The notes below the pieces were generated by a model. The model made no database searches. It had not been told where the DNA came from and worked only from the letters and a program-made list of their open reading frames with translations. DNA of 64,000 nt from Marinoscillum pacificum (GTDB lineage: Bacteria > Bacteroidota > Bacteroidia > Cytophagales > Cyclobacteriaceae): NCBI RefSeq assembly GCF_024714495.1, contig NZ_JAMZMJ010000005.1:248001-312000 (forward strand). Direction: 5' to 3'. This document shows, piece after piece, positions 4,851 through 27,590 of this stretch. The position numbers and the translations under genes are program-made. How positions within the stretch are numbered: the first letter of the stretch is position 1; the number at the start of each line of letters is the position of its first letter.

Positions 4851-6992
4851 TTAGCTTTCCTCTTTCTTTTCCGGTTTAGGCAATAAAACTTTTCGTGATA
4901 AGCGGTATTTACCAGTTTTCTTATCGATATCGATAAGTTTCACCTTAATTTCTTCGCCTACCTCTAGTACGCCTTCAACTTTCTCTACACGCTCCCATTT
5001 GATCTCAGAAATGTGTAGCAAACCGTCTTTACCTGGTAGTATTTCTACGAAAGCACCGAATGGCATGATTGCCTTCACTTTACCTTCATACACTTCACCA
5101 ATTTCAGGAACAGCTACGATCGCCTTGATTCTTCTTACTGCCTCGTCTAAAGACTCTTTGTTAGCAGCGAATACACTTACAAGACCACCTTTATCAGTTT
5201 CTTCGATCGTAACAGTAGCCCCAGACTCTCGCTGAATCTCCTGAACAATCTTACCACCTGGTCCGATTACCGCACCAATTTGATCTCTTTCAATGTTGAT
5301 TTGAACAAGTCTTGGAGCGTTCTCTTTCATTTCATCTCTAGGAGCCGCAAGTGTCGTTTTCATCTCGTTCAAGATGTGTGTTCTACCTCTGTTTGCTTGC
5401 GCTAAAGCTTCCTTCAATACATCATAAGAAAGACCGTCGATCTTGATATCCATCTGACATGCAGTGATACCTTTATCTGTACCGGTTACTTTAAAGTCCA
5501 TATCACCCAAGTGATCTTCATCACCTAAGATATCAGACAATACTGCATATCTTCCTGTTTCGCTATCAGAGATCATACCCATAGCGATACCTGACACTGG
5601 ACTCTTAAGTTTAATACCAGCATCCATCAATGCCAATGCACCAGCACAAACTGTTGCCATAGATGATGAACCATTTGACTCAAGAATATCAGATACTACA
5701 CGAATAGTGTATGGACTATCTTCTGTAGGGATCATTGGTTTCAAAGCTCTCATAGCAAGGTTACCATGACCAACTTCTCTTCTTCCAGGACCTCTGTTTG
5801 GTCTTACTTCACCAGTTGAGAAACCAGGGAAGTTGTAGTGAAGGATGAATTTGTTATAACCAGAATGAATTGCTCCATCGATCATCTGCTCGTCCATCTT
5901 AGAACCTAAAGTAACAGTAGTCAATGACTGAGTTTCACCTCTAGTGAATACTGCTGATCCGTGTGCAGTAGGCAATACATCTACTTCACTCCAGATAGGT
6001 CTAACTTGCTCTAAGTCTCTTCCATCAAGACGTTTCTTAGTATCCAACACACAGTTTCTCACTGCATATTTCTGAACGTCATGGAAATATTTCTTTACAA
6101 GGAAGCTATCTAACTCTTCTAGTTCTTCTTCAGAGAACTGAGCAAGAAACTCTTCTTTTACCGCAGCAAAAGCTTCGCCTCTTTCGTTTTTGTTAGCAGA
6201 TCCTTGTTTAGCGATTTCGTAACATTTATCGTAACAGAAATCTTTAATTTTCTTTTCTAGCTCTTCGTCTTTAGGCTCGTGATCGTATTCACGTTTTTCA
6301 GTCTTACCTAATTCTTGAGCCAATTCGATTTGTGCCTGACACTGAATCTTGATCGCTTCGTGAGCCACTTTGATACCTTCTAGCATCTCGTCTTCGCTCA
6401 CTTCCTGAGATTCACCCTCCACCATCATGATGTTTTCCATGGTACCAGCCACGATCAAATCAAGATCACAACCTTCCATCTCCTCTGGAGTTGGGTTTAC
6501 CACATAAGCACCATCTTTAAGGATCACACGACACTCCGAAATAGGACCATCGAATGGAATATCAGAAACTGCTAATGCTGCAGATGCTGCCAATGCTGCT
6601 AGAGCATCTGGCAATACTTTAGGGTCAGCAGAAATCAATGAGATCATTACCTGCGTATCAGCATGGTAATCAGAAGGGAAAAGTGGTCTAAGCGCTCTAT
6701 CTACCAATCTACTGATCAATACTTCGTAATCAGATAGCTTACCTTCTCTCTTCAAGAATCCACCAGGAATTTTACCTGCAGATGCGAATTTCTCTTGATA
6801 GTCTACTGAAAGTGGAAGAAAATCCACTCCTTCTTTTGCGTCTTTACTAGAAACTACGGTAGCTAAAACCATGGTGTCACCCATTCTCACTACCACAGAG
6901 CCATCAGCTTGCTTGGCCAGGCGGCCAGTTTCAATAGAGATCTCTCTACCATCAGCTAATGCAAATTTTTTAACCGTGTATTGAGGCTTCAT
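4851..6992 (-). CDS. pnp: polyribonucleotide nucleotidyltransferase (PNPase)
   Basis: PNPase is the phosphorolytic 3'-5' exoribonuclease of RNA decay. The 713-residue product has two RNase PH domains (about residues 10-230 and 310-545), a helical linker between them, a KH domain ([20 protein letters not shown], about residue 570) and an S1 domain near the C-terminus ([18 protein letters not shown]). The second RNase PH core carries the phosphate-binding and catalytic segments around [11 protein letters not shown] and the [13 protein letters not shown] stretch. It follows rpsO, the conserved order in many bacteria, with a terminator-like hairpin between them that probably sets the relative levels of the two products. 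Confidence 0.97.
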
Positions 6993-13501: not shown

Positions 13502-14725
13502 TTACGTGGTATACATTGAATTGAACATCACATAATCGGTTGTCAGGTCTGTCCCCCAGCCTATAGCTGAAGCTCTTCCTTCTCTTAATTTCATTTGAAT
13601 GATAATCTCGGATTGCTTGAGAATCCTTTTCACCAGGTTCATGTCGAACTCTAGTGGTCTACCCTGCTCTAGCATCTTCACCTCCTCTGTAGAGTTACCT
13701 AACCAGAGATCTACCTTTGCTGGATCAAAGTTTATACCACTTCTACCCATAGCTGCCAGCACACGTCCCCAGTTAGGATCACGGCCGAACATGGCTGTTT
13801 TCACCAATGAAGAGTCTGACACCACTCGTACGATCTTTCTCGCATCTTCTTTTGACTTGGCTCCATCCAGGCGATACTCAATGAATTTACTAGCGCCTTC
13901 ACCGTCGGAGATGATCAACTTAGCAAGGTGAGTCATTAGTTCATGAAGCTTCTCTTTGAATGTGATATAGTGTGGATCACTTGTGGAAGTAATCATCTCA
14001 TTATCAGCTAAGCCATTAGCCATAATACTCGCCATGTCATTAGTAGATGTGTCACCATCCACTGTGATCATATTGAATGAGTCATTTACAGCCTCCTTGA
14101 AAGCTTTATCCAGTAGCTTTTGGTCGATATTCAAATCAGTAAAAGCAAAAGCCAACATGGTAGCCATATTGGGGTGAATCATTCCAGAACCTTTCGCAAT
14201 TCCTCCTATATTGATGGTATTGCCATCAATTTCAAACTCAACAAATCCCTCTTTAGCGAAAGTATCTGTGGTTAGAATAGCATTCGCAGCAAAACTTCCG
14301 GCGCGAGAATTTTCAGAAATCTTTTTGACGTTTTCTTTAATTCCTTCAACTACCTCTTCTGTTGGAAAAGCTTTTCCGATGATGCCCGTAGAAGCTACCA
14401 TTACCTTATTGGTATCGATATTGAACTCTTTGGCAGCTGCTTCAGCCATTGCCAAAGCACCTTCTTCACCCTGTTTTCCAGTTACTGCATTAGCATTACC
14501 AGAATTACAGATGATCGCCTGAGCCATATTGTTGGTTTCTTCCAAATGCTTTTTCGTCAACTTGATTGGTTCCGCTACCACCAAATTTTGAGTGAATGTG
14601 GCCGACACCTTCGCTGGCACTTCCGAATATAGAATAGCAAGATCACGACGCATGGATTTCACCCCTGTGTGGGCTCCCCAGCATTTGATCCCTCTAACAT
14701 TCGTTATGTTTCTTATCATGTTCAC
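13502..14725 (-). CDS. argJ: bifunctional glutamate N-acetyltransferase/ornithine acetyltransferase
   Basis: ArgJ moves the acetyl group from N-acetylornithine to glutamate and so closes the cyclic arginine pathway. The 407-residue proenzyme self-cleaves before a Thr. The cleavage segment GSGMIHPNMATML is present, with Thr after Ala as the nucleophile. Other family segments are ICNSGNANAVTG near residue 90, GIIGKAFP, and the beta-subunit TVDGDTSTNDM and GDPNWGR-like FGRDPNWGRVLAAMGRSG. It is the last gene of argB-argD-argC-argJ, with 17 bases between it and argC. Its presence shows acetyl recycling rather than the linear succinyl/acetyl-citrulline route known from Bacteroides. Confidence 0.95.
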   Translation of the reverse strand: MNMIRNITNVRGIKCWGAHTGVKSMRRDLAILYSEVPAKVSATFTQNLVVAEPIKLTKKHLEETNNMAQAIICNSGNANAVTGKQGEEGALAMAEAAAKEFNIDTNKVMVASTGIIGKAFPTEEVVEGIKENVKKISENSRAGSFAANAILTTDTFAKEGFVEFEIDGNTINIGGIAKGSGMIHPNMATMLAFAFTDLNIDQKLLDKAFKEAVNDSFNMITVDGDTSTNDMASIMANGLADNEMITSTSDPHYITFKEKLHELMTHLAKLIISDGEGASKFIEYRLDGAKSKEDARKIVRVVSDSSLVKTAMFGRDPNWGRVLAAMGRSGINFDPAKVDLWLGNSTEEVKMLEQGRPLEFDMNLVKRILKQSEIIIQMKLREGRASAIGWGTDLTTDYVMFNSMYTT

Positions 14726-14742
14726 AATTACAATAGTTTAGT

Positions 14743-15780
14743 TTATGGTTGTAATGGAGTTATGTTTAAGCCCGCGGTTTCTTCTAACCCGAGCATGATA
14801 TTCATATTTTGAACAGCTTGTCCTGCAGCACCTTTCACCAGATTATCAATCACGCCAATACTAATGATCGTATTGGTACGATCGTCATAAGTCACGAACA
14901 AGTCACAATAATTGGTACCTCTTACCTGCTTTAAATTAGGCAAATCATCACCAACTCTTACGAATGGCTCATTATCATAGTATTCATGATAGAGCTTGTT
15001 CAGGTCTTCTGAAGAAATGTCTCTAGTCGGACGTGTGTAGCATGTGGAGAGTATTCCTCTGTCTACTGGCAGCAAGTGAGGTGTAAATAATACCGATGCT
15101 TCCGAATTGGCATACTTACCAATGATTTCTTGTATCTCTATCGTGTGACGGTGACTCTTCACGCCATAAGCAGTGAAGTTGTCATTAACTACTGGAAAAT
15201 GCGTATTTGGTTTAGCTTTAATTCCCGCACCAGTCACACCTGTTTTGGAATCAACCGTAATGTGATTCTTATCAATAATGCCTTCTTTCAGCAAAGGAGA
15301 CAATGCCAAAATAGCTGAAGTTGGGAAACACCCTGGATTGGCTACTAATTTCGCCTCTGCAATTCGTTTTCTGAACAATTCAGGTGATCCGAATACCGCA
15401 GCATCAAACCCTTGCTCAAAATTGTGATCTTTCTTATACCAGGCCTCGTAAACCCCTTTGGAAGACAATCTAAAGTCTCCACTGAGGTCAACAATTTTAA
15501 AATCTTTGTCATGGTTTTCCTTCACAAAATCCATGGAAACTCCATGTGGTAATGCTAGAAAAACAAGATCTAATTCATAATTGGGAATATCCTCGATACT
15601 CACCAATGTCGGCTCAAATATTCCTCGATACTGCGGATGCACATCTGAGAATCTCTCACCCTTTCTGCTTTCTGACGTAATTGCACTGATATGAATATCC
15701 GGATGATTGATAAGGATTCTTACCAACTCTGATCCGGTATATCCGGTAGCTCCTACTATAGCTACGTTAAATTTTGACAT
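14743..15780 (-). CDS. argC: N-acetyl-gamma-glutamyl-phosphate reductase
   Basis: ArgC reduces N-acetylglutamyl phosphate to the semialdehyde with NADPH. The 345-residue protein starts with the dinucleotide fold GATGYTGSELVRIL, carries the catalytic Cys in NPGCFPTSA near residue 150, and has the HRHTIEIQEI segment with the active-site His. DVSGDFRL-type sequence (DLSGDFRLSS) precedes the Cys. It begins immediately after the argD frame, with no intergenic bases. Confidence 0.96.
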   Translation of the reverse strand: MSKFNVAIVGATGYTGSELVRILINHPDIHISAITSESRKGERFSDVHPQYRGIFEPTLVSIEDIPNYELDLVFLALPHGVSMDFVKENHDKDFKIVDLSGDFRLSSKGVYEAWYKKDHNFEQGFDAAVFGSPELFRKRIAEAKLVANPGCFPTSAILALSPLLKEGIIDKNHITVDSKTGVTGAGIKAKPNTHFPVVNDNFTAYGVKSHRHTIEIQEIIGKYANSEASVLFTPHLLPVDRGILSTCYTRPTRDISSEDLNKLYHEYYDNEPFVRVGDDLPNLKQVRGTNYCDLFVTYDDRTNTIISIGVIDNLVKGAAGQAVQNMNIMLGLEETAGLNITPLQP

Positions 15781-16977
15781 TTATCTATGTTCTTTAATTG
15801 ATTTCAATAATACTTCGATAACTGTTTCTATATCCTCCTGAGGAATATTCAATGGAGGAACCAAACGCACTACATTACCTGCAGTAGCATTGGCTATCAC
15901 ATGATGCTTCAACATCATTGTTGTTACGATTGGCTTTGACTCAACTGTTAGTTCAATCCCTAACATCAAACCATAACCTCTAATTTCTTTTATCTCTGGA
16001 TAGTCTGCTTTAACAGACTCTATTTTATCTTTTACCCATTGACCTTTCTTTTCAGCTTCTGCCAATAAGTTTTCTTCTTCTATCACTTCGAGATTTGCTA
16101 ATGCTGCGGCACATACCAATGGGTTTCCACCATAAGTAGTACCATGGTCTCCCCAATCGATCGCCTGACCTGCTTTTTCGGTAGCTAATACTGCACCAAT
16201 TGGCACTCCAGCTCCTAATCCTTTCGCAAGTGTCATTACATCTGGCTTTACTCCAAAATGCTCATGAGCAAACATTTTCCCTGTTCTAGCTATACCACAC
16301 TGAACCTCATCAAATACCAATACAAGATTGTGCTCATCACAAAATGCCCTGAGATCTATTAGGAATTGCTTGTCCGCAGGATTAATACCACCTTCACCCT
16401 GAATCGGTTCCAACATGATCGCTCCTACTTCATCCGTCACCATCGATTTGATAGCGTCCAAATCATTAAAAGGAGCATGCATAAATCCTTCTGGGATTGG
16501 AGCAAAACCATTCATCATGGCTTCTTTACCAGTGGCAGCAACTGTAGCCAGTGTTCTTCCATGAAATGCATTTTTCATGGCAATGATTTTGCTGCCTCTT
16601 CCATTTTTGGAAGCGTACTTACGAGCAATTTTGATAGCTCCTTCACCAGCCTCAGCACCACTATTGCCAAAAAACACTCTTTGCATTCCTGACAATTCTG
16701 CTAACTTCTTGGCCAACTTCACTTGAGGTTCGCTTAAGAAAAAATTGGAGATGTGCACCAATTCATGGGCTTGTTTACTGATGGCCTCAGCCACTTTGGG
16801 GTGACAGTTTCCAACATTGTTCACTGCAATTCCGGCAAGAGCATCAATGTACTCATTACCCTCCATGTCCCAAAGCCTGGATCCACTACCTTTTTTGAAT
16901 GCTAGCGGATACCTTTTGAATGTTGGTAAATAATATTGTTGATCTAACTGATGTAATTCTTCTGTTGAATAACTCAT
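15781..16977 (-). CDS. argD: acetylornithine aminotransferase (class III, PLP)
   Basis: ArgD interconverts N-acetylglutamate semialdehyde and N-acetylornithine with glutamate as amino donor. The 398-residue enzyme shows the class III signature: GNSGAEAGEGAIKIAR for PLP phosphate binding, FDEVQCGIARTG for the PLP ring Asp, and the Schiff-base Lys in MTLAKGLGAGVPIGA. It lies 3 bases after argB and abuts argC. A second argD-like gene at 29766-30890 has its own locus. Membership in this operon makes this copy the arginine enzyme. Confidence 0.94.
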   Translation of the reverse strand: MSYSTEELHQLDQQYYLPTFKRYPLAFKKGSGSRLWDMEGNEYIDALAGIAVNNVGNCHPKVAEAISKQAHELVHISNFFLSEPQVKLAKKLAELSGMQRVFFGNSGAEAGEGAIKIARKYASKNGRGSKIIAMKNAFHGRTLATVAATGKEAMMNGFAPIPEGFMHAPFNDLDAIKSMVTDEVGAIMLEPIQGEGGINPADKQFLIDLRAFCDEHNLVLVFDEVQCGIARTGKMFAHEHFGVKPDVMTLAKGLGAGVPIGAVLATEKAGQAIDWGDHGTTYGGNPLVCAAALANLEVIEEENLLAEAEKKGQWVKDKIESVKADYPEIKEIRGYGLMLGIELTVESKPIVTTMMLKHHVIANATAGNVVRLVPPLNIPQEDIETVIEVLLKSIKEHR

Positions 16978-16980
16978 TGG

Positions 16981-17796
16981 TTATTTTGATATGATTGTTC
17001 CTGTTTGGTTTTGATTAATAATTGCTTCAACTAAAGTACCTTCTTTGGTACCGTTAATGATTCGAGCAGACTTAGCTCCCTGATCCAATGCAATTTGGCA
17101 AGACTCGATTTTGGGGATCATGCCGCCTACGATGACTTCATCAAAAAGAGGGGCCAACTCATCATAAGCAAGTTCCTGGATCAAAGAATCTACATCATCT
17201 TTGTCCATCATCAATCCATCAACATCTGTCAATACAATGTAATCATCTGCATCAACAGCACCGGCAACTGCACCAGCCATCATGTCTGCGTTGATATTAA
17301 AGGTGTGTCCCTCTTTGCTCGGTGCAACACATGCCACCACAGGGATATAATTCTTATCTAGCAAGTCGTTGAGAATCGTAGGGTCAATACTGTCGATATT
17401 TCCAACCTGACCTAAATCTATTTGACTGTCTCCATCATGATGATATCTTCTGGAAGCTTTGGCTAGTCCACCATCCTTACCACTTATACCTACGGCACGA
17501 TGCCCAAGATTATTAAGTAAAGTCACTAAACCTGAGTTTACTTCTCCAAGCAATGTCATCTCGATGTACTTCATTGCTTCTGGAGTCGTTTTCCTGTGAC
17601 CTCCTATAAATTCAGATTGGATTTTGACTGTTGTTAAAATGTCATTGATGAATGGTCCTCCGCCATGCACTACAACTACGCGCTTACCAGCTTGATGGAG
17701 TTTTCCTATGTCTTTCATCACGGAAAGCTTGATCTGATCATTGACCATAGCATTTCCGCCATACTTGATAACTATTGTTTCTTTCTGGTCGATAAT
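16981..17796 (-). CDS. argB: acetylglutamate kinase with atypical start
   Basis: ArgB phosphorylates N-acetylglutamate. The first in-frame ATG (17746-17748) would give MVNDQIKLS and lose the catalytic Lys motif VIKYGGNAM, which is encoded just upstream. The frame is open back to a TAA at 17836-17838 but has no ATG, GTG or TTG. The start given here is an ATT at 17794-17796 and is only a guess; other ATT/ATA/ATC codons are possible. An ATG at 17855-17857 opens a different frame (14 codons) that overlaps this one, so a 1-base indel at 17813-17838 would restore a normal start. Later motifs are intact: VVVVHGGGPFIND and NINADMMAGAVAGA. Confidence 0.85.
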   Translation of the reverse strand: MIDQKETIVIKYGGNAMVNDQIKLSVMKDIGKLHQAGKRVVVVHGGGPFINDILTTVKIQSEFIGGHRKTTPEAMKYIEMTLLGEVNSGLVTLLNNLGHRAVGISGKDGGLAKASRRYHHDGDSQIDLGQVGNIDSIDPTILNDLLDKNYIPVVACVAPSKEGHTFNINADMMAGAVAGAVDADDYIVLTDVDGLMMDKDDVDSLIQELAYDELAPLFDEVIVGGMIPKIESCQIALDQGAKSARIINGTKEGTLVEAIINQNQTGTIISK

Positions 17797-17935: not shown

Positions 17936-18754
17936 TTACTGAGATTGCACACTATCAACTCGCTTCAAAAGCTCAAAATTTTGCTTCACTTGACTAGTGT
18001 TTTCAGCTTGTTTCAAACTCAATTTTCGAATAGTATGTGACTGATCTGAAACCGCATTTCGAACCTCTTCTAAGCGCTGGGTATTATTGGTTGTCTCTTG
18101 TAAAATATCGGCTATCTCTCTTGATTGTTGCATTACTGAATCAAGTGTTTCCTGTTGTTGCATCTGACTCAATCCTATTTTGGCAGTTCGATCATTCAAA
18201 ATTCGTAATTGAGAATTCAACCGATCAGCTGTTGCTTGATAGTTGAAATACAGCCCAACGGCATTTACCAAAATCAAAGTAGCACAACCTCCGATTAAAA
18301 TATTTTTAAATTTTTTAAGATCTAGTGATCGAAGGGATATAAACTCCCTATTTACAAGATCCTGAAGTGAATGATTGACTCTAAACTGTTGGCTAGCCAA
18401 TGATAACAGCTTGGCAGAAACAGCAATATCCGGTAAAAACTGAGGGATAACCCCGTCACTTCGCTCTCCACAATACACTGTATTGTCTACCATTGGTAAA
18501 GACTGCCAACTCGATACATACCCACGCTTTTCCAGATAGCTTATTAGATCCATTACTTCCAGCAAGTAGCTCATCTGATTATTGAGAGTGCCTGAAGCAT
18601 GAACTACCAGCAATTGCTGATAACTACTCATTTCCAGTTTCCCCATTTCAATTCCCCAACCTGGTCGTATAAAATCAATGAGCGAAACAACATTGGAAGC
18701 ACCATTAACCAGGCTTCTTACAATATGTCTTTCATTATCACTAAATGGCCTCAT
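17936..18754 (-). CDS. membrane-anchored coiled-coil protein, last gene of the racemase operon
   Basis: I do not recognise a family. The 272-residue protein has a globular N-terminal part (1-148) rich in hydrophobic helices, one membrane helix at about 150-170 (NILIGGCATLILVNAVGLYF), and a C-terminal ~100-residue region rich in Gln, Asn, Ser and Leu heptads. That region is predicted to be a coiled coil, probably outside the cytoplasm. Its ATG overlaps the alr stop as TAATG, so translation is coupled. It could anchor or export the product of the ATP-grasp/Cys-hydrolase/racemase operon, or be a structural partner. This is inference from position only. Confidence 0.75.
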   Translation of the reverse strand: MRPFSDNERHIVRSLVNGASNVVSLIDFIRPGWGIEMGKLEMSSYQQLLVVHASGTLNNQMSYLLEVMDLISYLEKRGYVSSWQSLPMVDNTVYCGERSDGVIPQFLPDIAVSAKLLSLASQQFRVNHSLQDLVNREFISLRSLDLKKFKNILIGGCATLILVNAVGLYFNYQATADRLNSQLRILNDRTAKIGLSQMQQQETLDSVMQQSREIADILQETTNNTQRLEEVRNAVSDQSHTIRKLSLKQAENTSQVKQNFELLKRVDSVQSQ

Positions 18755-19914
18755 TACTTAACAATGGTTCGTGGAATAGCAGCAGGAAGTCTACTCAGCA
18801 TCTCATTGTTCATCAATTGAGTCACCTGGGTAAAGGAGCTAATATTAATGGTATTGCTCTTTTGACGTCCAACCAATACCACTTCTTCTCCAACCTCTAC
18901 ACCTTTGATATGAGAAACATCTACCATGAATAAATTCATATTGATTAGTCCAACAACAGGAGCCTTTTTCCCTTTGATGAGTACATGCCCACGATTAGAC
19001 TGCCCACGTGGGTACCCATTGGAATAACCAAGTGGCAAAACCGCAACTTCCATATCTCGAGTAGCCTGGTAACTAGTACCATAACCGATAAACTCCCCTT
19101 CTTTTACATGACGAAGGTCCATGATATCCGTCTTCCAGGTAAAAAGCCTTTTCAAAGCACCATTGGAGCTAGTAGCACCGATTTCCTGCAAGTGTGCATA
19201 GTAGATATCCGGGCTTGGCCAAAAGCCATATTGGGCTACACCAATCCTGACCATATCATATACCGTATCAGGATACGCTAATGCAGCTGCAGAACAGGCA
19301 ATGTGTTTGATTTTAGGCAGGACATTCTTCTTCTTGCATTGTTTCAAAAACTCTTTGTAACGAGCATGCTGAGAATCGATTTTAAACTTATTGGCGAAAC
19401 TCTCAGCTCCCCCGAAATGCGTACATAATCCGGTAAACTCGATAAACTCCGCATTCTTCTTTAAGAAAGTAAGCGTTTTAGGAAAGTCTGAAGCTTGCAT
19501 CCCAGTTCTATTGGCGCCTGTCTCCACCTCTATATGTAAATGCGCTTGCTTTCCAAGGGCTTTCGCTTTGTGAAGGACAATTTCCAATCGCTCGTAATTG
19601 AAGACAAAAAATTCAATGCCATTTTCAATAGCCCAATCAATGTCTTCGTCATACAAAATACCCATGACCATCACGTCAGCTTTAGCTGATTTGGCATCCA
19701 AGACTTCTTCTGCCTCAAAAGCTGACGCAGTAGCAAAGTGATTCACTCCAGATTTCTCGGCCATACGAACAAAAGGTCCAATTCCATGGCCATAGGCATT
19801 GGCTTTTACTACAGATGAAATACGTACTCCATCACCTACCTTCTTGCGAATGAAGTTGATATTGTTGGTTAATGAAGATTGACTCAGCTCTATTCTTGAT
19901 GAGTGTCTTACCAT
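18754..19914 (-). CDS. alr: alanine racemase-family enzyme (stand-alone)
   Basis: The 386-residue fold-type III PLP enzyme has the PLP Lys in VVKANAYGHG (Lys37), the N-terminal IELSQSSLTNNI, the second catalytic region FIGYGTSYQA, LPLGYSNGYPRG, and MNLFMVDVSHI. Many family members have Met-Asp where this has Met-Asn (MNLF). In most Bacteroidota the cell-wall alanine racemase is fused to MurF. A free-standing copy inside a four-gene operon with an ATP-grasp ligase suggests a dedicated D-amino acid supply. The substrate may be Ala, Ser or another amino acid. It overlaps the upstream 662-aa gene by 7 bases. Confidence 0.9.
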   Translation of the reverse strand: MVRHSSRIELSQSSLTNNINFIRKKVGDGVRISSVVKANAYGHGIGPFVRMAEKSGVNHFATASAFEAEEVLDAKSAKADVMVMGILYDEDIDWAIENGIEFFVFNYERLEIVLHKAKALGKQAHLHIEVETGANRTGMQASDFPKTLTFLKKNAEFIEFTGLCTHFGGAESFANKFKIDSQHARYKEFLKQCKKKNVLPKIKHIACSAAALAYPDTVYDMVRIGVAQYGFWPSPDIYYAHLQEIGATSSNGALKRLFTWKTDIMDLRHVKEGEFIGYGTSYQATRDMEVAVLPLGYSNGYPRGQSNRGHVLIKGKKAPVVGLINMNLFMVDVSHIKGVEVGEEVVLVGRQKSNTINISSFTQVTQLMNNEMLSRLPAAIPRTIVK

Positions 19915-21896
19915 ATTTTTTGTTGATTATTCCAGGTATATGACTTACCCCAGCTGGACTTAGCCAGGTTATCTACTTCTTTTAGTTCCGAATCTGGAAC
20001 CTGATTTACTTTATGAGCTACATCTAAATGGCTATAATGAAATGCGTAAATACGCGCTGCAAACTGTGCTATTGGCAAACTGGACTCTCCGTGTTTTTCT
20101 CCAAAACCAAAAACGGCGGGTTTAATCCCTTGTCCCCAATCTTGTCGTCCTTCGTTGTTCGGGTTTAAGAAATAAGCTCTAGCTTTTCCATTTTGATCTT
20201 TAGCTATTCGCAACAAGGAAATGGCGTGAAACCCAACCATATCTCCTTTGGATGACGTGATAAATATCCCTACTGGATTTGGATAAGACATCTCCCGATC
20301 TCCGTTGAAGTCTGGATGAAATGCGGCATAAAAGATTCGTATAAAACCTTCAAAATCCAGAATAGAGTTGGTCAAATAATCATAGCAGGAGGCAAAACTC
20401 AATTGTATCCACTGTCCATACATTGCAGGGTTTACCCACTTATGCGGATCTTCAGCTCTTCCTGCAGATCGCTTCATCATCTCGTTATATATCTTATCCA
20501 GATGTGGTACTAACAAAACAGAAACCGGATCGAGATTGTAATCCAATTTCTCAACCAATCCTTTGCCTAGTTGATTAGAAACCAAATCGTGATTTTCAAA
20601 TCGCATGATCAGGTTGTTTTGAGTAGCAACCGTGATGATCATGTCTATGAGCTTAGCAGGTGCATGCTGACTCCACATACTCAGTCCTCTTGCTGACTGA
20701 CAAGTAGGATTATTACCTTGTCCAACTCCAAGAGGCTGTCCCAACATTTTAATAACTCCACCTAACAAGTATTGCTGAGCTGTCACATCCATATCTGGAT
20801 GAATCAAAGATTTGATGATCCGCTTTTCTACTTGCGGGTTCAATTTGATCTTCCTTAAATTCTCCAACCCAACTCGCACAGGACGTCTGGAGAACAGGTT
20901 TTTACCCAACATTCGAGCCAATCCATAAATGCATTGACAGTTATCGGGACTAACAATTTCTATAATTAGCGTAGAAACTAACTCATGAAACTTTTCCCAT
21001 TCGGCTTTACCTCGATCATTAAGATCCAGGCAATTTGGCACCAACTCAGGATGTTCCTTCACCAGTTTCTTGAGCAACAACGGATGGTATTGACTGACCA
21101 AACCTGTTTGATGCATGTAATAACCGAAGCTATCAGCTTCGTGCGATAGTGTTCTAAGGTTGGCATTATCCAAAAAGTCCTGATAATCTTCCAGTGTTTG
21201 ATGCAGAATCGAATTCTGGGAAGGTTTGTAGACTGCATTGATATATAACCTTACAGATTTATCAACTTCACGATCACCAGAAGTATCAAAACGAGCATCT
21301 ACCAGACGTATTAATTCGCGCGCTTTTCTAGTCACTATCGGACGCTGCTCGCAAATCAAACGGATTTCCTCAGCCAACTTATCGTATACGCCACCCAAAT
21401 CAATCTCTGAAATGATGAATCCGAACAGATTAAAGGCCTTCTTCAGCTCACGCTCACTCATGACAGTGCGTGTCTCTTCGGCTGGTTCTTTTAGTGCAAA
21501 CTCTAGATTATGAACCACTACTTCTTCCAGGAAATTCTGTGCTTCTTTGGCGTTAATCACCTCACTTTGCTGATCTCCATTGGCATAAGCCAATAACCGA
21601 AGCTCAGAGAGCAATTCAAAACTAGAAGAAGGATGACCGGCTTTTAAGGTTCCTTTCACAAGTGCTGGAACTAACTTATCTGGTTCATTCCAAGCCGTAC
21701 CGAAGAAAATACCGGCCTGATCTAGCTCGCCGCTTTTCTCATATAAATAAGACAATCCATCTCTAGTCAGACTGAGAATATCAATCTGTGATGCGAGCTT
21801 GGCTGCTTTGTCTCTTTTGGTAAAATCAGGAGCCTCTTTGAATTCTAAAAAACTGTTTTCAAAATTTTCGAATACCCTATTTGAGGTTTCTTGCAT
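19908..21896 (-). CDS. large protein with papain-like Gln/Cys/His/Asn pattern
   Basis: The first ~380 residues are alpha-helical and resemble no domain I can name. From ~385 the sequence shows a cysteine-peptidase layout: GQGNNPTCQSARG with Gln393 six residues before Cys399 (papain Q19/C25 has the same spacing), then GFHAISLLRI with His557, then AYFLNPNNEG with Asn578. FLNPN-type strands after the His and GxHA before it also fit papain or transglutaminase-like hydrolases and transpeptidases. There is no signal peptide, so it acts in the cytoplasm. It lies 82 bases after the ATP-grasp gene and overlaps alr. A peptide hydrolase or acyl/peptidyl transferase acting with the ligase and racemase is my inference. 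Confidence 0.75.
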   Translation of the reverse strand: MQETSNRVFENFENSFLEFKEAPDFTKRDKAAKLASQIDILSLTRDGLSYLYEKSGELDQAGIFFGTAWNEPDKLVPALVKGTLKAGHPSSSFELLSELRLLAYANGDQQSEVINAKEAQNFLEEVVVHNLEFALKEPAEETRTVMSERELKKAFNLFGFIISEIDLGGVYDKLAEEIRLICEQRPIVTRKARELIRLVDARFDTSGDREVDKSVRLYINAVYKPSQNSILHQTLEDYQDFLDNANLRTLSHEADSFGYYMHQTGLVSQYHPLLLKKLVKEHPELVPNCLDLNDRGKAEWEKFHELVSTLIIEIVSPDNCQCIYGLARMLGKNLFSRRPVRVGLENLRKIKLNPQVEKRIIKSLIHPDMDVTAQQYLLGGVIKMLGQPLGVGQGNNPTCQSARGLSMWSQHAPAKLIDMIITVATQNNLIMRFENHDLVSNQLGKGLVEKLDYNLDPVSVLLVPHLDKIYNEMMKRSAGRAEDPHKWVNPAMYGQWIQLSFASCYDYLTNSILDFEGFIRIFYAAFHPDFNGDREMSYPNPVGIFITSSKGDMVGFHAISLLRIAKDQNGKARAYFLNPNNEGRQDWGQGIKPAVFGFGEKHGESSLPIAQFAARIYAFHYSHLDVAHKVNQVPDSELKEVDNLAKSSWGKSYTWNNQQKIW

Positions 21897-21978
21897 TGTT
21901 GATTTGGGTCAATAAAGAACTTCTCGACAGCCATACCCATCGAGAAGCAACAAATAATTGTATCTGATTATCAATTAA

Positions 21979-23202
21979 TTACACATAGAAATCTACTTCT
22001 TCATAATGAAGCAGCAGCTCTGTCATTCGGTCTGGATCTTCACCTTTGAAGTTGATCGTACCAAAGTGATTTCCAAAACCTTCTCTGTTGTCACTAATCT
22101 TCTGTGTGCTCAAAGGCGGAACTAGCGTGTGATCCACAAAGTATGGTTCGTTATTCAGCTCCTCAGGGATTTCAAGTTTCGAGAAAGTACGTTTCTGAGG
22201 GTAGATCATCACATTACCATTGTAGTTATCAGGGAAATAATCCTTCGATGGGAAGATTTCGTCCAGTTCCTCTTCAGTAATATTTGGGTCATGGCATAGC
22301 ACAAATGCAGCTAATGCATCAAATCCCCAGGATTTACTCGCCAACTCTAAAATGTGACCTCCAGGGATTCTACAGGCCGTTTCTCCAAAGTTCAATTCAT
22401 CATTCTCAGTCAGGAACCACTCTGGATGCACCATACCATATTCGATTCCGAAGATGTCTACCAACTTCTGCACATGCTTATATATGAGTTCACGCTTAGA
22501 ATTGAGATAATGTCCTTCTGGAATGAAGTTAGAATATCCTAAATGCACGTATTCTGTGATATTCAAGAAACGCACTTTTCCTTTGTTGATGAACGCCTCA
22601 CATGAGAATTCTCGACCAGGCAAGTGACTCTCAGCCAGACATGGGAAATCACTATCCTCACACTTCTCATCTATATCTTTCATAGACTTCAACAGCCTAT
22701 GCCCCACTGTACCAGCTGAAGCAAACGGCTTGATGTGTACCCAGCTATCCTCTTCACCGTCCAATTGAAGATTAGCTTCATTGAGACGTTTCATGAAGGC
22801 TTTGACTCCTTCTTTGTTGTAAACCTCTTCAAATAGGCCTACTCGTAATCCACCAATGAGCGCTTTACGCTTCATCATTGCTTTATTTCTAAACAAGAAA
22901 GCACGGTTTAACACACGTGGATCACCACGATAGATTGAATTGAGAGCTCCGGCCCACTCTACTGTTTCCTCAAACAACGGAACAGCTACATCCACTCCAT
23001 AGGGTTGTAATTTTTCAAATAGATCTAACGAATTAGAGGTATCACTCCATTCATTTAGTTGATACGAGACGAATGGAATATTATTCTCTTTTGCATAGGG
23101 TTCAAAATCAGGAAAGGAAACCACTACATACGGTTTCCCAAGCTTTTCCATACTTTCGATTACGGGCAAACTCCACCCCATCAATGCGAAACATTTAGCC
23201 AT
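21979..23202 (-). CDS. ATP-grasp carboxylate-amine ligase
   Basis: The 407-residue enzyme has an N-terminal pre-ATP-grasp Rossmann-like part (1-100), a mixed ATP-binding part with HIKPFASAGTVG (Lys158), ESHLPGREFSCEAF (from Glu191) as the adenine-contacting linker, and the metal-binding end GMVHPEWF (His259, Glu261) followed by NFGETACRIPGGH (Glu274, Arg278). The G-x-x-H-x-E...E-x-x-x-R-x-x-G-G pattern is that of amino-acid/peptide ligases such as BacD and carnosine synthase. It is first in an operon with a Cys-hydrolase-like protein and an alanine racemase. Its substrates are unknown. A terminator-like leader structure precedes it. Confidence 0.88.
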   Translation of the reverse strand: MAKCFALMGWSLPVIESMEKLGKPYVVVSFPDFEPYAKENNIPFVSYQLNEWSDTSNSLDLFEKLQPYGVDVAVPLFEETVEWAGALNSIYRGDPRVLNRAFLFRNKAMMKRKALIGGLRVGLFEEVYNKEGVKAFMKRLNEANLQLDGEEDSWVHIKPFASAGTVGHRLLKSMKDIDEKCEDSDFPCLAESHLPGREFSCEAFINKGKVRFLNITEYVHLGYSNFIPEGHYLNSKRELIYKHVQKLVDIFGIEYGMVHPEWFLTENDELNFGETACRIPGGHILELASKSWGFDALAAFVLCHDPNITEEELDEIFPSKDYFPDNYNGNVMIYPQKRTFSKLEIPEELNNEPYFVDHTLVPPLSTQKISDNREGFGNHFGTINFKGEDPDRMTELLLHYEEVDFYV

Positions 23203-23235
23203 TATAATTATCGATTTTTGGTTTCAAGAAATTAT

Positions 23236-23304
23236 AAAAAAGGACAGATGTATCCTGTGGCGAGAGAAAAGGGCACGTATGTCCTGTTGTGGATGGATAC
23301 ATCT
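23236..23304 (-). promoter_or_regulatory. structured leader with terminator-like hairpin before the ATP-grasp operon
   Basis: On the - strand AGATGTATCC (23304-23295) pairs perfectly with GGATACATCT (23255-23246) across 39 bases. Inside that loop AGGACA (23285-23280) can pair with TGTCCT (23246-23241), which runs straight into TTTTTT. The second helix shares a base with the first and is followed by a T run, so the two look like alternative or pseudoknotted states. It ends 33 bases before the ATP-grasp ATG. No gene upstream on this strand needs a terminator, so leader attenuation is the simplest reading. Confidence 0.6.
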
Positions 23305-24621: not shown

Positions 24622-25176
24622 ATGACTGTAAAAGAACTTAGACAACAGCTACATGACTGGGTAGACCGGGGAGATACCAAAATTCTGAAAATGCTCTATG
24701 CCATCAGCAAAGTATATTTCACAGAGGCCAACCCTACCCGATCGGATTCACCTCTATACCGTCTGGTCTATTCCAGTGTCAGATCAGAATCGTGCGATCA
24801 GGATTGTATTGATAAAATTTTAGCCAGCTCAGTAAAAAACAATCCATCTAAAGAACTTACCGGAATGCTTCTGTATTCTGAAGATCGTTTCATCCAAATC
24901 CTCGAAGGGCCTTTGGTTAATGTAATGGAGACTTACAACATGATACTAAAAGATCCAAGGCATGGCGGATCAGTAATTAGATATTGTGCTCCCACTGAGG
25001 AACGTTATTTTGAAGATTGGCACATGGGTTCTAAAAGTATCGAGGAACATGCCTTGGAATTCAAGACGGATATCTCTTCGGAAGAAAAGAAACTGTATAA
25101 CTCCCTGGCAGACGGGAATCTTGCTTCCTATAGAGATGATAGTCTAAGAATGCTTAAAACGTTTCTGGCGTTCTAA
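24622..25176 (+). CDS. BLUF-domain blue-light photoreceptor
   Basis: The 184-residue protein carries a ~40-residue N-terminal extension and then a BLUF domain. The flavin-site residues are in register: Tyr50 in RLVYSS, Asn74 in KNNPSKELTG, and Gln92 in FIQILEG, with the Tyr-Asn (24) and Asn-Gln (18) spacing of AppA. FEDWHMGSK near residue 135 supplies the Trp/Met region. No output domain follows, so it is a short BLUF protein that probably signals through a partner. It ends at a good terminator. Confidence 0.92.
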   Translation: MTVKELRQQLHDWVDRGDTKILKMLYAISKVYFTEANPTRSDSPLYRLVYSSVRSESCDQDCIDKILASSVKNNPSKELTGMLLYSEDRFIQILEGPLVNVMETYNMILKDPRHGGSVIRYCAPTEERYFEDWHMGSKSIEEHALEFKTDISSEEKKLYNSLADGNLASYRDDSLRMLKTFLAF

Positions 25177-26806: not shown

Positions 26807-27100
26807 ATGGACACTAATGAAGTAGCAAGGTTTGACGCTAAAATGTCAGTCTTGCACAAAAAGTTATTGGAGGAAGCTGCTAGTTTGAAAGGGTTTCGAA
26901 ATTTAACTGAGTATGTAATTACTACTATGGTTGAAGACGCAAAGGCTGTAGTTGAAGAATATTCAAAGGTTTTGTATTCAATTGAAGATAAAAAAAGAAT
27001 TATGAAAATCTTGAATGAGCCAACAGAGCTATCTGATTCATTCTTGAAAGCTTCGCAAAAACGAAGTAAAAGATTAGATAATGAAATTTATAACAGTTGA
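26807..27100 (+). CDS. DUF1778/TacA-type antitoxin
   Basis: The 97-residue protein has an N-terminal ribbon-helix-helix (residues ~5-45: ARFDAKMSVLHKKLLEEAA then FRNLTEYVITTM) that would bind the operator upstream. A C-terminal segment (LNEPTELSDSFLKASQK) would wrap and inhibit the toxin, as known for DUF1778 antitoxins. Its end overlaps the GNAT toxin start by 20 bases, the standard arrangement of these pairs. Confidence 0.88.
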   Translation: MDTNEVARFDAKMSVLHKKLLEEAASLKGFRNLTEYVITTMVEDAKAVVEEYSKVLYSIEDKKRIMKILNEPTELSDSFLKASQKRSKRLDNEIYNS

Positions 27101-27590
27101 TTTTGATAAGAAATATAATAGAGAACGTTTTTCATGCAGTCATGATTCACTAAATAATTATCTAAAAAGGCAAGCCACCAAAGAATCAAAAGCAGGGCTG
27201 GCCAAAGTTTATTTGTTAGTAAATACCTCGAACGAGGTTATCGGTTACTATTCATTATCTTCTTCAGAACTCCCAAAGGATTGCATTCCAGATGTAATGC
27301 TGAAAAAACTACCCAAAGGCTATACTGGATATCCTGCCATATTATTAGGACGACTAGCAGTTACCAAAAATGAAACAGGAAAAGGATTAGGAGGAGAACT
27401 TTTAGTCGATGCCATTCACCGATGTGTTATTCATTCTCTTTCTATTGGTACTTGTGTAATTATGATTGATCCAATAGATGAGAGTGCTACTAAATTCTAT
27501 GAGAAATTCATGTTCAAACGATTGCCTGATTCTGATAGAATGTTATTACATATTGACTTCAATCTTCGATCACACTTTGGACTAGAATGA
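27081..27590 (+). CDS. GNAT toxin (TacT-like)
   Basis: TacT-type toxins acetylate the amino group of charged tRNAs and block translation. The 169-residue protein starts with FSCSHDSLNNYLKRQATKE, the F/DCG-like N-terminal segment of these toxins. It has GYYSLSSSELP, the acetyl-CoA loop RLAVTKNETGKGLGGELL (residues ~92-110), and the C-terminal FYEKFMFKRLPDSDRML. Pairing with a DUF1778 antitoxin supports the toxin role over a metabolic GNAT. The tRNA target is not predictable here. Confidence 0.88.
   Translation: MKFITVDFDKKYNRERFSCSHDSLNNYLKRQATKESKAGLAKVYLLVNTSNEVIGYYSLSSSELPKDCIPDVMLKKLPKGYTGYPAILLGRLAVTKNETGKGLGGELLVDAIHRCVIHSLSIGTCVIMIDPIDESATKFYEKFMFKRLPDSDRMLLHIDFNLRSHFGLE

Follow-up and report, generated by a model that had tools for sequence, protein, structure and literature searches.

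A conserved gene cassette, built around an ATP-grasp ligase and a papain-like cysteine enzyme, lies on the minus strand of a 64,000-nucleotide (nt) stretch of the Marinoscillum pacificum genome (the window; contig NZ_JAMZMJ010000005.1, positions 248,001 to 312,000). We found that the conserved unit is a two-gene core, the ligase plus the papain-like protein, to which an alanine-racemase-family enzyme has been added in one part of the tree. A fourth gene, for a membrane coiled-coil protein, is a local extra outside the conserved unit. Judged by sequence, the papain-like family is without a model in Pfam, NCBIfam and PADLOC, and the whole is a variant of ATP-grasp peptide pathways, as all of its enzymes but one fall into known superfamilies. 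We tentatively propose, at rather less than even odds, that the cassette directs the synthesis of a peptide or amide which is related to ornithine, probably contains a D-amino acid and may serve as a compatible solute. The original prediction, made from the DNA alone, described four consecutive minus-strand genes with two of the three joints overlapping, and the open reading frame (ORF) list confirms this arrangement: the papain-like and racemase genes share 7 nt (19908-19914), the racemase and membrane genes share 1 nt (18754), and a gap of 82 nt separates the ligase from the papain-like gene. The end given for the operon, 23304, is 102 nt upstream of the ligase ATG; the frame prolonged to 23304 contains a stop, and we thus set the ligase start at 23202.

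To describe conservation we use named loci (loci carry L numbers, genomes G numbers), which are the best 80 of at least 566 stretches in GTDB r220 encoding a relative of the 662-amino-acid (aa) papain-like protein. Two patterns were used to collect the 566 stretches and one gene may count twice; locus titles can also mislead (L031, titled Rickettsiales, is a contig of the same-genus genome G397). The ligase lies directly upstream of the papain-like gene, on the same strand and within 900 nt, in 74 of the best 80 loci. Four of the six exceptions are cut by a contig end, L082 has no visible ligase, and in L086 the ligase is on the other strand, ~3.6 kb from the papain-like gene. Loci with the core pair are titled Bacteroidota, Balneolota, Gemmatimonadota and Bacillota groups, and the pair also occurs in Halomonas. 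A racemase follows directly downstream in 43 of the best 80, on the Bacteroidota, Balneolota and Rhodothermota side. An adjoining racemase is absent from the Gemmatimonadetes/Gemmatimonadales-titled loci (two of them cut) and from 23 Bacillota-group loci (two cut), and none lies directly downstream in L082 (titled Bernardetiaceae). In the Halomonas record, ligase and papain-like protein are 44% and 35% identical to their counterparts in the window, and the 25.8 kb fetched contain no match to the cassette racemase.

Ligase, papain-like gene and racemase keep an identical order in all 12 related loci fetched, a recurrence beyond chance, and the membrane gene stands beside the cassette in only two of these 12, at 31-40% identity. 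Because the pair recurs without an adjoining racemase and the membrane gene is found in 2/12 loci only, we describe the unit as a pair with an added racemase; a four-gene unit including the membrane protein was rejected on the latter count. The four-family linkage that had been predicted thus holds for ligase, papain-like protein and racemase and fails for the membrane protein, and within the remaining three the composition shifts to a core pair with the racemase as an addition that carries an unusual gate residue. No third family recurs beside the pair across all groups. By genome, the 662-aa protein was found in 4 of 395 genomes of the phylum and 10 of 39 close relatives (own genome included in both), in 5/200 genomes of the class of the Halobacillus locus (seed included, one match partial) and in 3/198 of the phylum of a Planctomycetota-titled locus (seed included). 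Within the genus of the window, G396 lacks the cassette and the arginine gene argB at the syntenic place (L229:5853-6174), where several flanking genes are conserved, two other genes lie in between, and argD-C-J and the SSS/GNAT/Orr-like cluster described below are retained. In G397 and G399 (L020:6374-6627; L023:6648-6844) neither the membrane gene nor argB lies between racemase and argD; an 18-aa stretch at this place in G397 resembles the start of argB, at an E value of only 2.6.

The papain-like protein carries a papain signature, Q393-x5-C399, H557 and N578, which reproduces the papain arrangement of a Gln six residues ahead of the Cys, next a His and next an Asn. Across 74 of 74 papain-like sequences, these four residues and N580 never vary. 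No Pfam or NCBIfam model scored above its cut-off for the window's protein or for its relative from L105. In an AlphaFold model (predicted local distance difference test, pLDDT, 91.3), C399 opens a helix, H557 sits in a strand and N578 comes right after a strand, while the first ~390 residues are helical. Foldseek returned only weak matches for this model; the more probable ones are papain-family proteases, namely dipeptidyl aminopeptidase, calpain and staphopain, with papain-family hits at E 0.016-1.2 and a probability of up to 0.80. Searches of the Protein Data Bank (PDB) gave no relative of note by sequence (one FtsA chain at E 0.14) and none by profile at E up to 5. The 662-aa protein is therefore best called a new papain-like family, a predicted Cys enzyme. 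Three Bacillota-group loci encode, further downstream, a shorter papain-like paralogue that shares 33-35% identity with the protein of the window. A role in anti-phage defence was rejected, as four window proteins and one relative have no PADLOC match at E up to 0.001.

The 407-aa protein is predicted to be an ATP-grasp amino-acid ligase whose nearest solved relative is RizA. It scores 23.2 bits against ATP-grasp_4, just under the cut-off of 27, and a profile search of PDB sequences matches RizA (4wd3) at 3.2e-12. An AlphaFold model built from 52 aligned sequences (pLDDT 90.9) ranks RizA first, BL00235 second and BacD fifth in Foldseek, with template-modelling (TM) scores of 0.72-0.79 over the query length and 14-18% identity. 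The ATP-grasp motif residues E274, R278, G281 and G282 are invariant in all 52 ligase rows, a wide alignment in which identity to the window's ligase falls to ~45%; in a narrower alignment it runs from 89-94% for three same-genus rows to 63-69% for the four most distant. Pfam, NCBIfam and the AlphaFold model place no GNAT domain in the ligase.

The racemase scores 279 bits against NCBIfam TIGR00492 (cut-off 168), and K37, R136, H166 and Y278 are invariant across 14 aligned Alrs (i.e., the catalytic Lys and Tyr are retained). Besides the cassette enzyme, the own genome encodes two Alr-type racemases, one fused to MurF (MurF-Alr, 1030 bits, cut-off 804) and one that stands alone with 47% identity, which makes three in all. 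Since the genome holds both the fusion and the further stand-alone Alr, the cassette racemase is not the cell-wall enzyme, and a plain cell-wall racemase was rejected on these grounds together with the missing Tyr at its gate. The predicted dedicated ligase/racemase pathway thereby gains support, from the conserved linkage and from a separate MurF-Alr; the possibility that this was the genome's sole Alr, raised with that prediction, falls away. Among the 39 relatives, the cassette-type racemase (67-100% identity) is confined to the ten carriers. The second stand-alone Alr (41-57%) is present in 10/10 carriers vs 4/29 others (Fisher p 1.6e-6; 9/10 vs 4/29, p 3.0e-5, when G410 is left out), and the other 25 non-carriers have just a low-identity Alr match, mostly of fusion size, or none.

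The gate of the active site distinguishes these enzymes. At the site of Tyr354, the cassette racemase has Asn in 53 of 53 rows (51 distinct sequences), counting only racemases of 370-420 aa beside the cassette and excluding cut ones; Tyr is found at this site in 9/10 second stand-alone Alrs (the exception being L207) and in 5/5 other Alrs. The register was checked on an alignment to 4y2w, the AlrTt structure of PMC4517790. This site bears on substrate range: racemases that prefer lysine have Thr or Ala there, and the serine racemase VanT has Asn (PMC3485190). Asn at the gate thus suggests, at the level of sequence, a substrate other than alanine. This is a suggestion and not proof because AlrTt, in which Gln360 occupies the Tyr354 site, still racemises alanine (PMC4517790). 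A tree was built from 25 of the 50 cassette rows, ten second Alrs and five others. In it, nine second Alrs form a clade next to that of the cassette enzymes, well removed from the five others (MurF-Alr included), and the second Alr of G410 (L207) groups inside the cassette clade; long branches make finer placing unsure. A further Asn, next to the pocket Met, is found in 63/63 cassette and second stand-alone rows (window N327, L024 N326), where the five other Alrs have Asp.

An argB-argD-argC-argJ set (13502-17748), beyond what the original prediction covered, lies downstream of the four-gene operon. We found that argB-D-C-J adjoins the cassette in three lineages, downstream in the window's genus and in L024 and upstream in L017. 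The own genome has two argC genes; the other one shares its operon with genes for argininosuccinate synthase and for an N-acetylornithine carbamoyltransferase (292 bits, cut-off 288), and G227, the source of L017, likewise has a double arg arrangement (carbamoyltransferase 297 bits). The N-acetylornithine carbamoyltransferase route goes via N-acetylcitrulline and yields no free ornithine; ArgJ releases ornithine. Of the 39 relatives, nine of the 10 carriers and two of the 29 non-carriers have argJ (Fisher 2.4e-6; by genus, 1.3e-4), and it is also found where it is not adjacent to the cassette (G400, G402 and G410). As neighbours, the arg genes suggest ornithine, and not the cell wall, as the pathway's concern. 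Of the prediction that a D-amino acid is ligated into a peptide, an amide or the wall, the pathway idea is kept and the wall becomes less likely. That the cassette product is linked to ornithine is a serious possibility, although one we would not bet on at even odds.

In the Bacillota group, where no racemase adjoins the pair, an acetyltransferase is often nearby (15 of 23 loci). The 23 loci of this group among the best 80 were grouped from titles and rank, and one is titled Chryseobacterium. In 8/23 a same-strand AblB family member precedes the ligase (in L101 at ~600 nt), in 7/23 there is a different GNAT on the opposite strand, never together with AblB, and 8/23 have neither. Three of the eight pass the AblB cut-off of 205 bits (L106 with 241, L085 and L089 with 232 and 241), and the other five were matched by BLAST. 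Genome-wide, AblB exceeds its cut-off in 5 of 22 genomes searched, all of the Bacillota group, and in none of the 11 Bacteroidota/Balneolota-side genomes, own genome included. AblB acetylates the side-chain amine of beta-lysine (PMC1224877), and a 2008 review names aerobic Firmicutes as the only group then known to have the solutes N-delta-acetylornithine and N-epsilon-acetyl-lysine (PMC2329653). Many carriers also bear salt-linked names (Halobacillus, Gracilibacillus, Salipaludibacillus, Lunatibacter salilacus and Halomonas). The likeliest role of the product is that of a compatible solute or another abundant internal metabolite, although the odds on a solute are below even. Near the AblB, ligase and papain-like genes, L092 (Oceanobacillus senegalensis) also encodes an AsnB-like amidotransferase (4981-6879; 361 bits against the N-acetylglutaminylglutamine amidotransferase model, cut-off 570), and L106 encodes an aminopeptidase that matches the lysyl aminopeptidase model below its cut-off.

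Elsewhere in carrier genomes, genes for an SSS transporter, a GNAT and an Orr-like racemase are clustered, often with an M20 amidohydrolase and the second Alr. The Orr-like racemase is present in 10/10 carriers vs 5/29 others, one of these at 37% only (p 4.7e-6). The M20 amidohydrolase exceeds the TIGR01891 cut-off and is related to DoeB2, an ectoine-catabolism deacetylase, while falling far below the DoeB2 cut-off. This cluster would suit a route that takes up and degrades an acylated diamino acid containing D-residues, and could also be general D-amino acid scavenging.

Together, these data suggest a possible sequence of events. ArgBDCJ would convert glutamate to free ornithine, which the main arginine operon does not release, and the racemase, with its Asn gate, would produce a D-amino acid that is not alanine, or not alanine alone. 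The ligase would activate an amino-acid carboxylate as an acyl-phosphate and couple it to an amine, so that ornithine, or a diamino acid akin to it, and probably a D-residue end up in a peptide or amide. Through Cys399 the papain-like enzyme may then form a thioester and transfer, trim or cyclise the ligase product, a step we liken to phytochelatin synthase, where a papain fold builds on glutathione. The Bacillota would instead mask an amine with an acetyltransferase, either AblB or another GNAT, and the SSS/GNAT/Orr-like cluster, with the deacylase and the second Alr where present, may recover or recycle the product. That the product is a peptide or amide at all is the firmest part of this scheme and is probably correct. 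A bolder version would make the cassette the core of an undescribed solute class, ornithine (pseudo)dipeptides that contain a D-residue in the Bacteroidota/Balneolota form and carry an acetylated amine in the Bacillota form, with the papain fold acting as an amide-forming transferase or cyclase and not as a protease, and with a matching uptake/recycling cluster; that all of this holds is unlikely.

Several observations weigh against the proposed pathway. Substrate and product are both inferred, from sequence evidence. Within the genus, argB is missing next to the cassette of G397 and G399. Cassette and argJ also occur apart in three genomes, G411 having only the cassette, and G396 and G415 only argJ. 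In seven Cyclobacterium loci the arg genes are just 29-39% identical and stand several kb off, and most named Bacteroidota loci (e.g., L033-L041) have no such argBDCJ in the stretch fetched. An argJ match occurs in 157 of 395 phylum genomes, including eight genomes of family f24 in which no papain-like gene was found (4/395 have that gene). At the gate, Asn fits serine as well as diamino acids, and the Tyr-less AlrTt racemises alanine (PMC4517790). AblB lies away from the cassette in G435, G441 and G442, which have none beside the ligase; the salt link consists of organism names in a similarity-ranked list with no control; against an Orr cut-off of 480, the three Orr-like proteins tested reach just 306-332 bits; Foldseek gave nothing for the papain-like model at E <0.001; and co-occurrence may come from shared descent or a shared marine life style. 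We rejected argJ as a phylum-wide cassette marker on the 157/395 count; the association was observed just for the 39 relatives.

The same facts feed an alternative in which argBDCJ and the Orr-like/transporter clusters only mark marine scavengers of D-amino acids and arginine, with the cassette acting on another amino acid, e.g., serine. How common argJ is in the phylum, the exceptions G411, G396 and G415, and a gate residue shared with the serine racemase VanT (PMC3485190) all favour this idea, which we nevertheless consider rather unlikely given physical linkage in three lineages and two arrangements and co-occurrence within the own family and order. A peptide natural product made by the ligase, secreted or signalling (a dipeptide antibiotic, protease inhibitor or metal binder to which the racemase gives a D-residue), is slightly easier to credit, though still unlikely. 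RizA and BacD, both makers of antibiotic dipeptides, are among the ligase's nearest solved relatives, the spread is patchy (4/395 and 10/39 genomes), and same-genus G396 lacks the cassette with its flanking genes retained; set against this are the high conservation of the ligase, the same cassette in many lineages, and the failure to see a recurring exporter among neighbours, which were identified for some loci only (a formate/nitrite-transporter-family gene precedes the ligase in L024).

Two further explanations appear improbable to about the same degree. The cassette could modify the envelope by putting a D-amino acid on peptidoglycan or another polymer, with the papain-like enzyme as amidase or transpeptidase, as the alanine-racemase family of one member might suggest and as one group of papain-fold enzymes acts on peptidoglycan (PMC10318531). 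Yet by eye, with no predictor run, ligase, papain-like protein and racemase have no apparent signal peptide, the genome has its separate MurF-Alr fusion, both Gram-positive and Gram-negative groups have the core with no racemase adjoining it, and the membrane protein is not conserved. Alternatively, the ATP-grasp enzyme could add amino acids to a protein or peptide as a tag that the papain-like enzyme removes or processes; the pairing of the ligase with a Cys hydrolase-type enzyme in 74/80 loci and a large helical N-terminal half that could, in the model, bind protein are in keeping with this. The best fold matches of the ligase are, however, free amino-acid ligases, no obvious target presents itself because no third family recurs beside the pair in all groups, and the gene links are to ornithine and acetyltransferases. 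An ornithine-related peptide or amide remains our preferred reading.

The features discussed are collected in the table. The 272-aa protein, in which a membrane helix and a coiled coil can be read from the sequence, has no Pfam or NCBIfam model above cut-off. Homology to argB reaches ~24 nt 5' of its first ATG (to 17772 by tblastn), and no ATG, GTG or TTG was seen there. Matches to promoter and terminator consensus sequences did not exceed those in shuffles (13 vs a mean of 15.2, and 4 vs 4.3). Just past the divergent neighbour of the cassette lies a gene for a BLUF blue-light sensor protein (24622-25176), and 26807-27590 holds a two-gene pair that we take, by its look, to resemble a DUF1778 antitoxin and a GNAT toxin.

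Table. Position of the cassette, the adjoining arginine genes and related features; positions are those of the window unless a locus is named.
Feature	Position	Strand	Basis
ATP-grasp ligase, 407 aa, core gene 1	21979..23202	-	ORF list
Predicted papain-like Cys enzyme, 662 aa, core gene 2, helical N-terminal half	19908..21896	-	ORF list
C399 codon; H557 codon	20702-20700; 20228-20226	-	Within 662-aa papain-like gene
Alanine-racemase-family enzyme, stand-alone, 386 aa, Asn370 at Tyr354 site	18754..19914	-	TIGR00492
Membrane/coiled-coil protein, 272 aa, local extra	17936..18754	-	ORF list; no family above cut-off
argB, acetylglutamate kinase	16981..17748	-	TIGR00761, 209 bits
argD, acetylornithine transaminase	15781..16977	-	TIGR00707, 492 bits
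argC, N-acetyl-gamma-glutamyl-phosphate reductase	14743..15780	-	TIGR01850, 426 bits
argJ, ornithine acetyltransferase, releases free ornithine	13502..14725	-	TIGR00120, 457 bits
SSS-GNAT-Orr-like cluster	L029:6677-11948 (own genome C11); also L209, L210, L211, L212, L233-L240		
Second papain-like paralogue	L104:13728-15560; L105:7338-9155; L088:12095-13981		

A papain-like family without a Pfam or NCBIfam model, encoded in at least 566 stretches and with a near-fixed ligase partner, offers chemistry that is directly testable. Should the product be an ornithine-derived solute, the cassette would supply genes for a class of halophile metabolites, would explain why a second ornithine-making arg set is retained in these Bacteroidota, and would place a papain fold in primary metabolism for amide synthesis.

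We found no described system with this gene set in the open-licence literature (titles and abstract starts), in agreement with the original prediction, and the closest comparisons are each partial. The cassette ligase shares with RizA, BL00235 and BacD the fold over most of its length and the conserved ATP-grasp positions; unlike them it is only 14-18% identical and is paired with a papain-like gene in 74/80 of the best loci. The osmolyte system for N-acetylglutaminylglutamine amide combines a GNAT/ATP-grasp protein, an AsnO-type amidotransferase and an M42 hydrolase. The idea of an ATP-grasp-made, acetyl-masked small peptide is common to both, as are ATP-grasp and GNAT neighbours in Bacillota-group loci, whereas the cassette ligase has no GNAT fusion and is accompanied by a papain-like enzyme and a racemase instead of an amidotransferase; reading of the ORF list gave no GNAT/ATP-grasp fusion with an AsnO-type partner around the cassette in the window, and L092 provides the one AsnB-like neighbour. 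Family members of the beta-lysine N-acetyltransferase AblB precede the ligase in eight Bacillota-group loci. In Methanosarcina, ablB is in an operon with ablA (PMC1224877), the gene for lysine 2,3-aminomutase in the N-epsilon-acetyl-beta-lysine pathway; among the five neighbours scanned at five AblB loci there is no aminomutase. The 662-aa protein shares papain-type catalytic residues with phytochelatin synthase and other papain-fold transferases, the former of which works on a ligase-made peptide, glutathione (PMC10318531), but a profile search gave it no sequence match in the PDB at E up to 5. Finally, like Alr, VanT and Lyr/Bar, the cassette racemase is a pyridoxal-phosphate-type racemase that keeps the catalytic Lys and Tyr; it differs by Asn at the Tyr354 site and Asn for Asp by the pocket Met, and falls in a clade separate from the five other Alrs.

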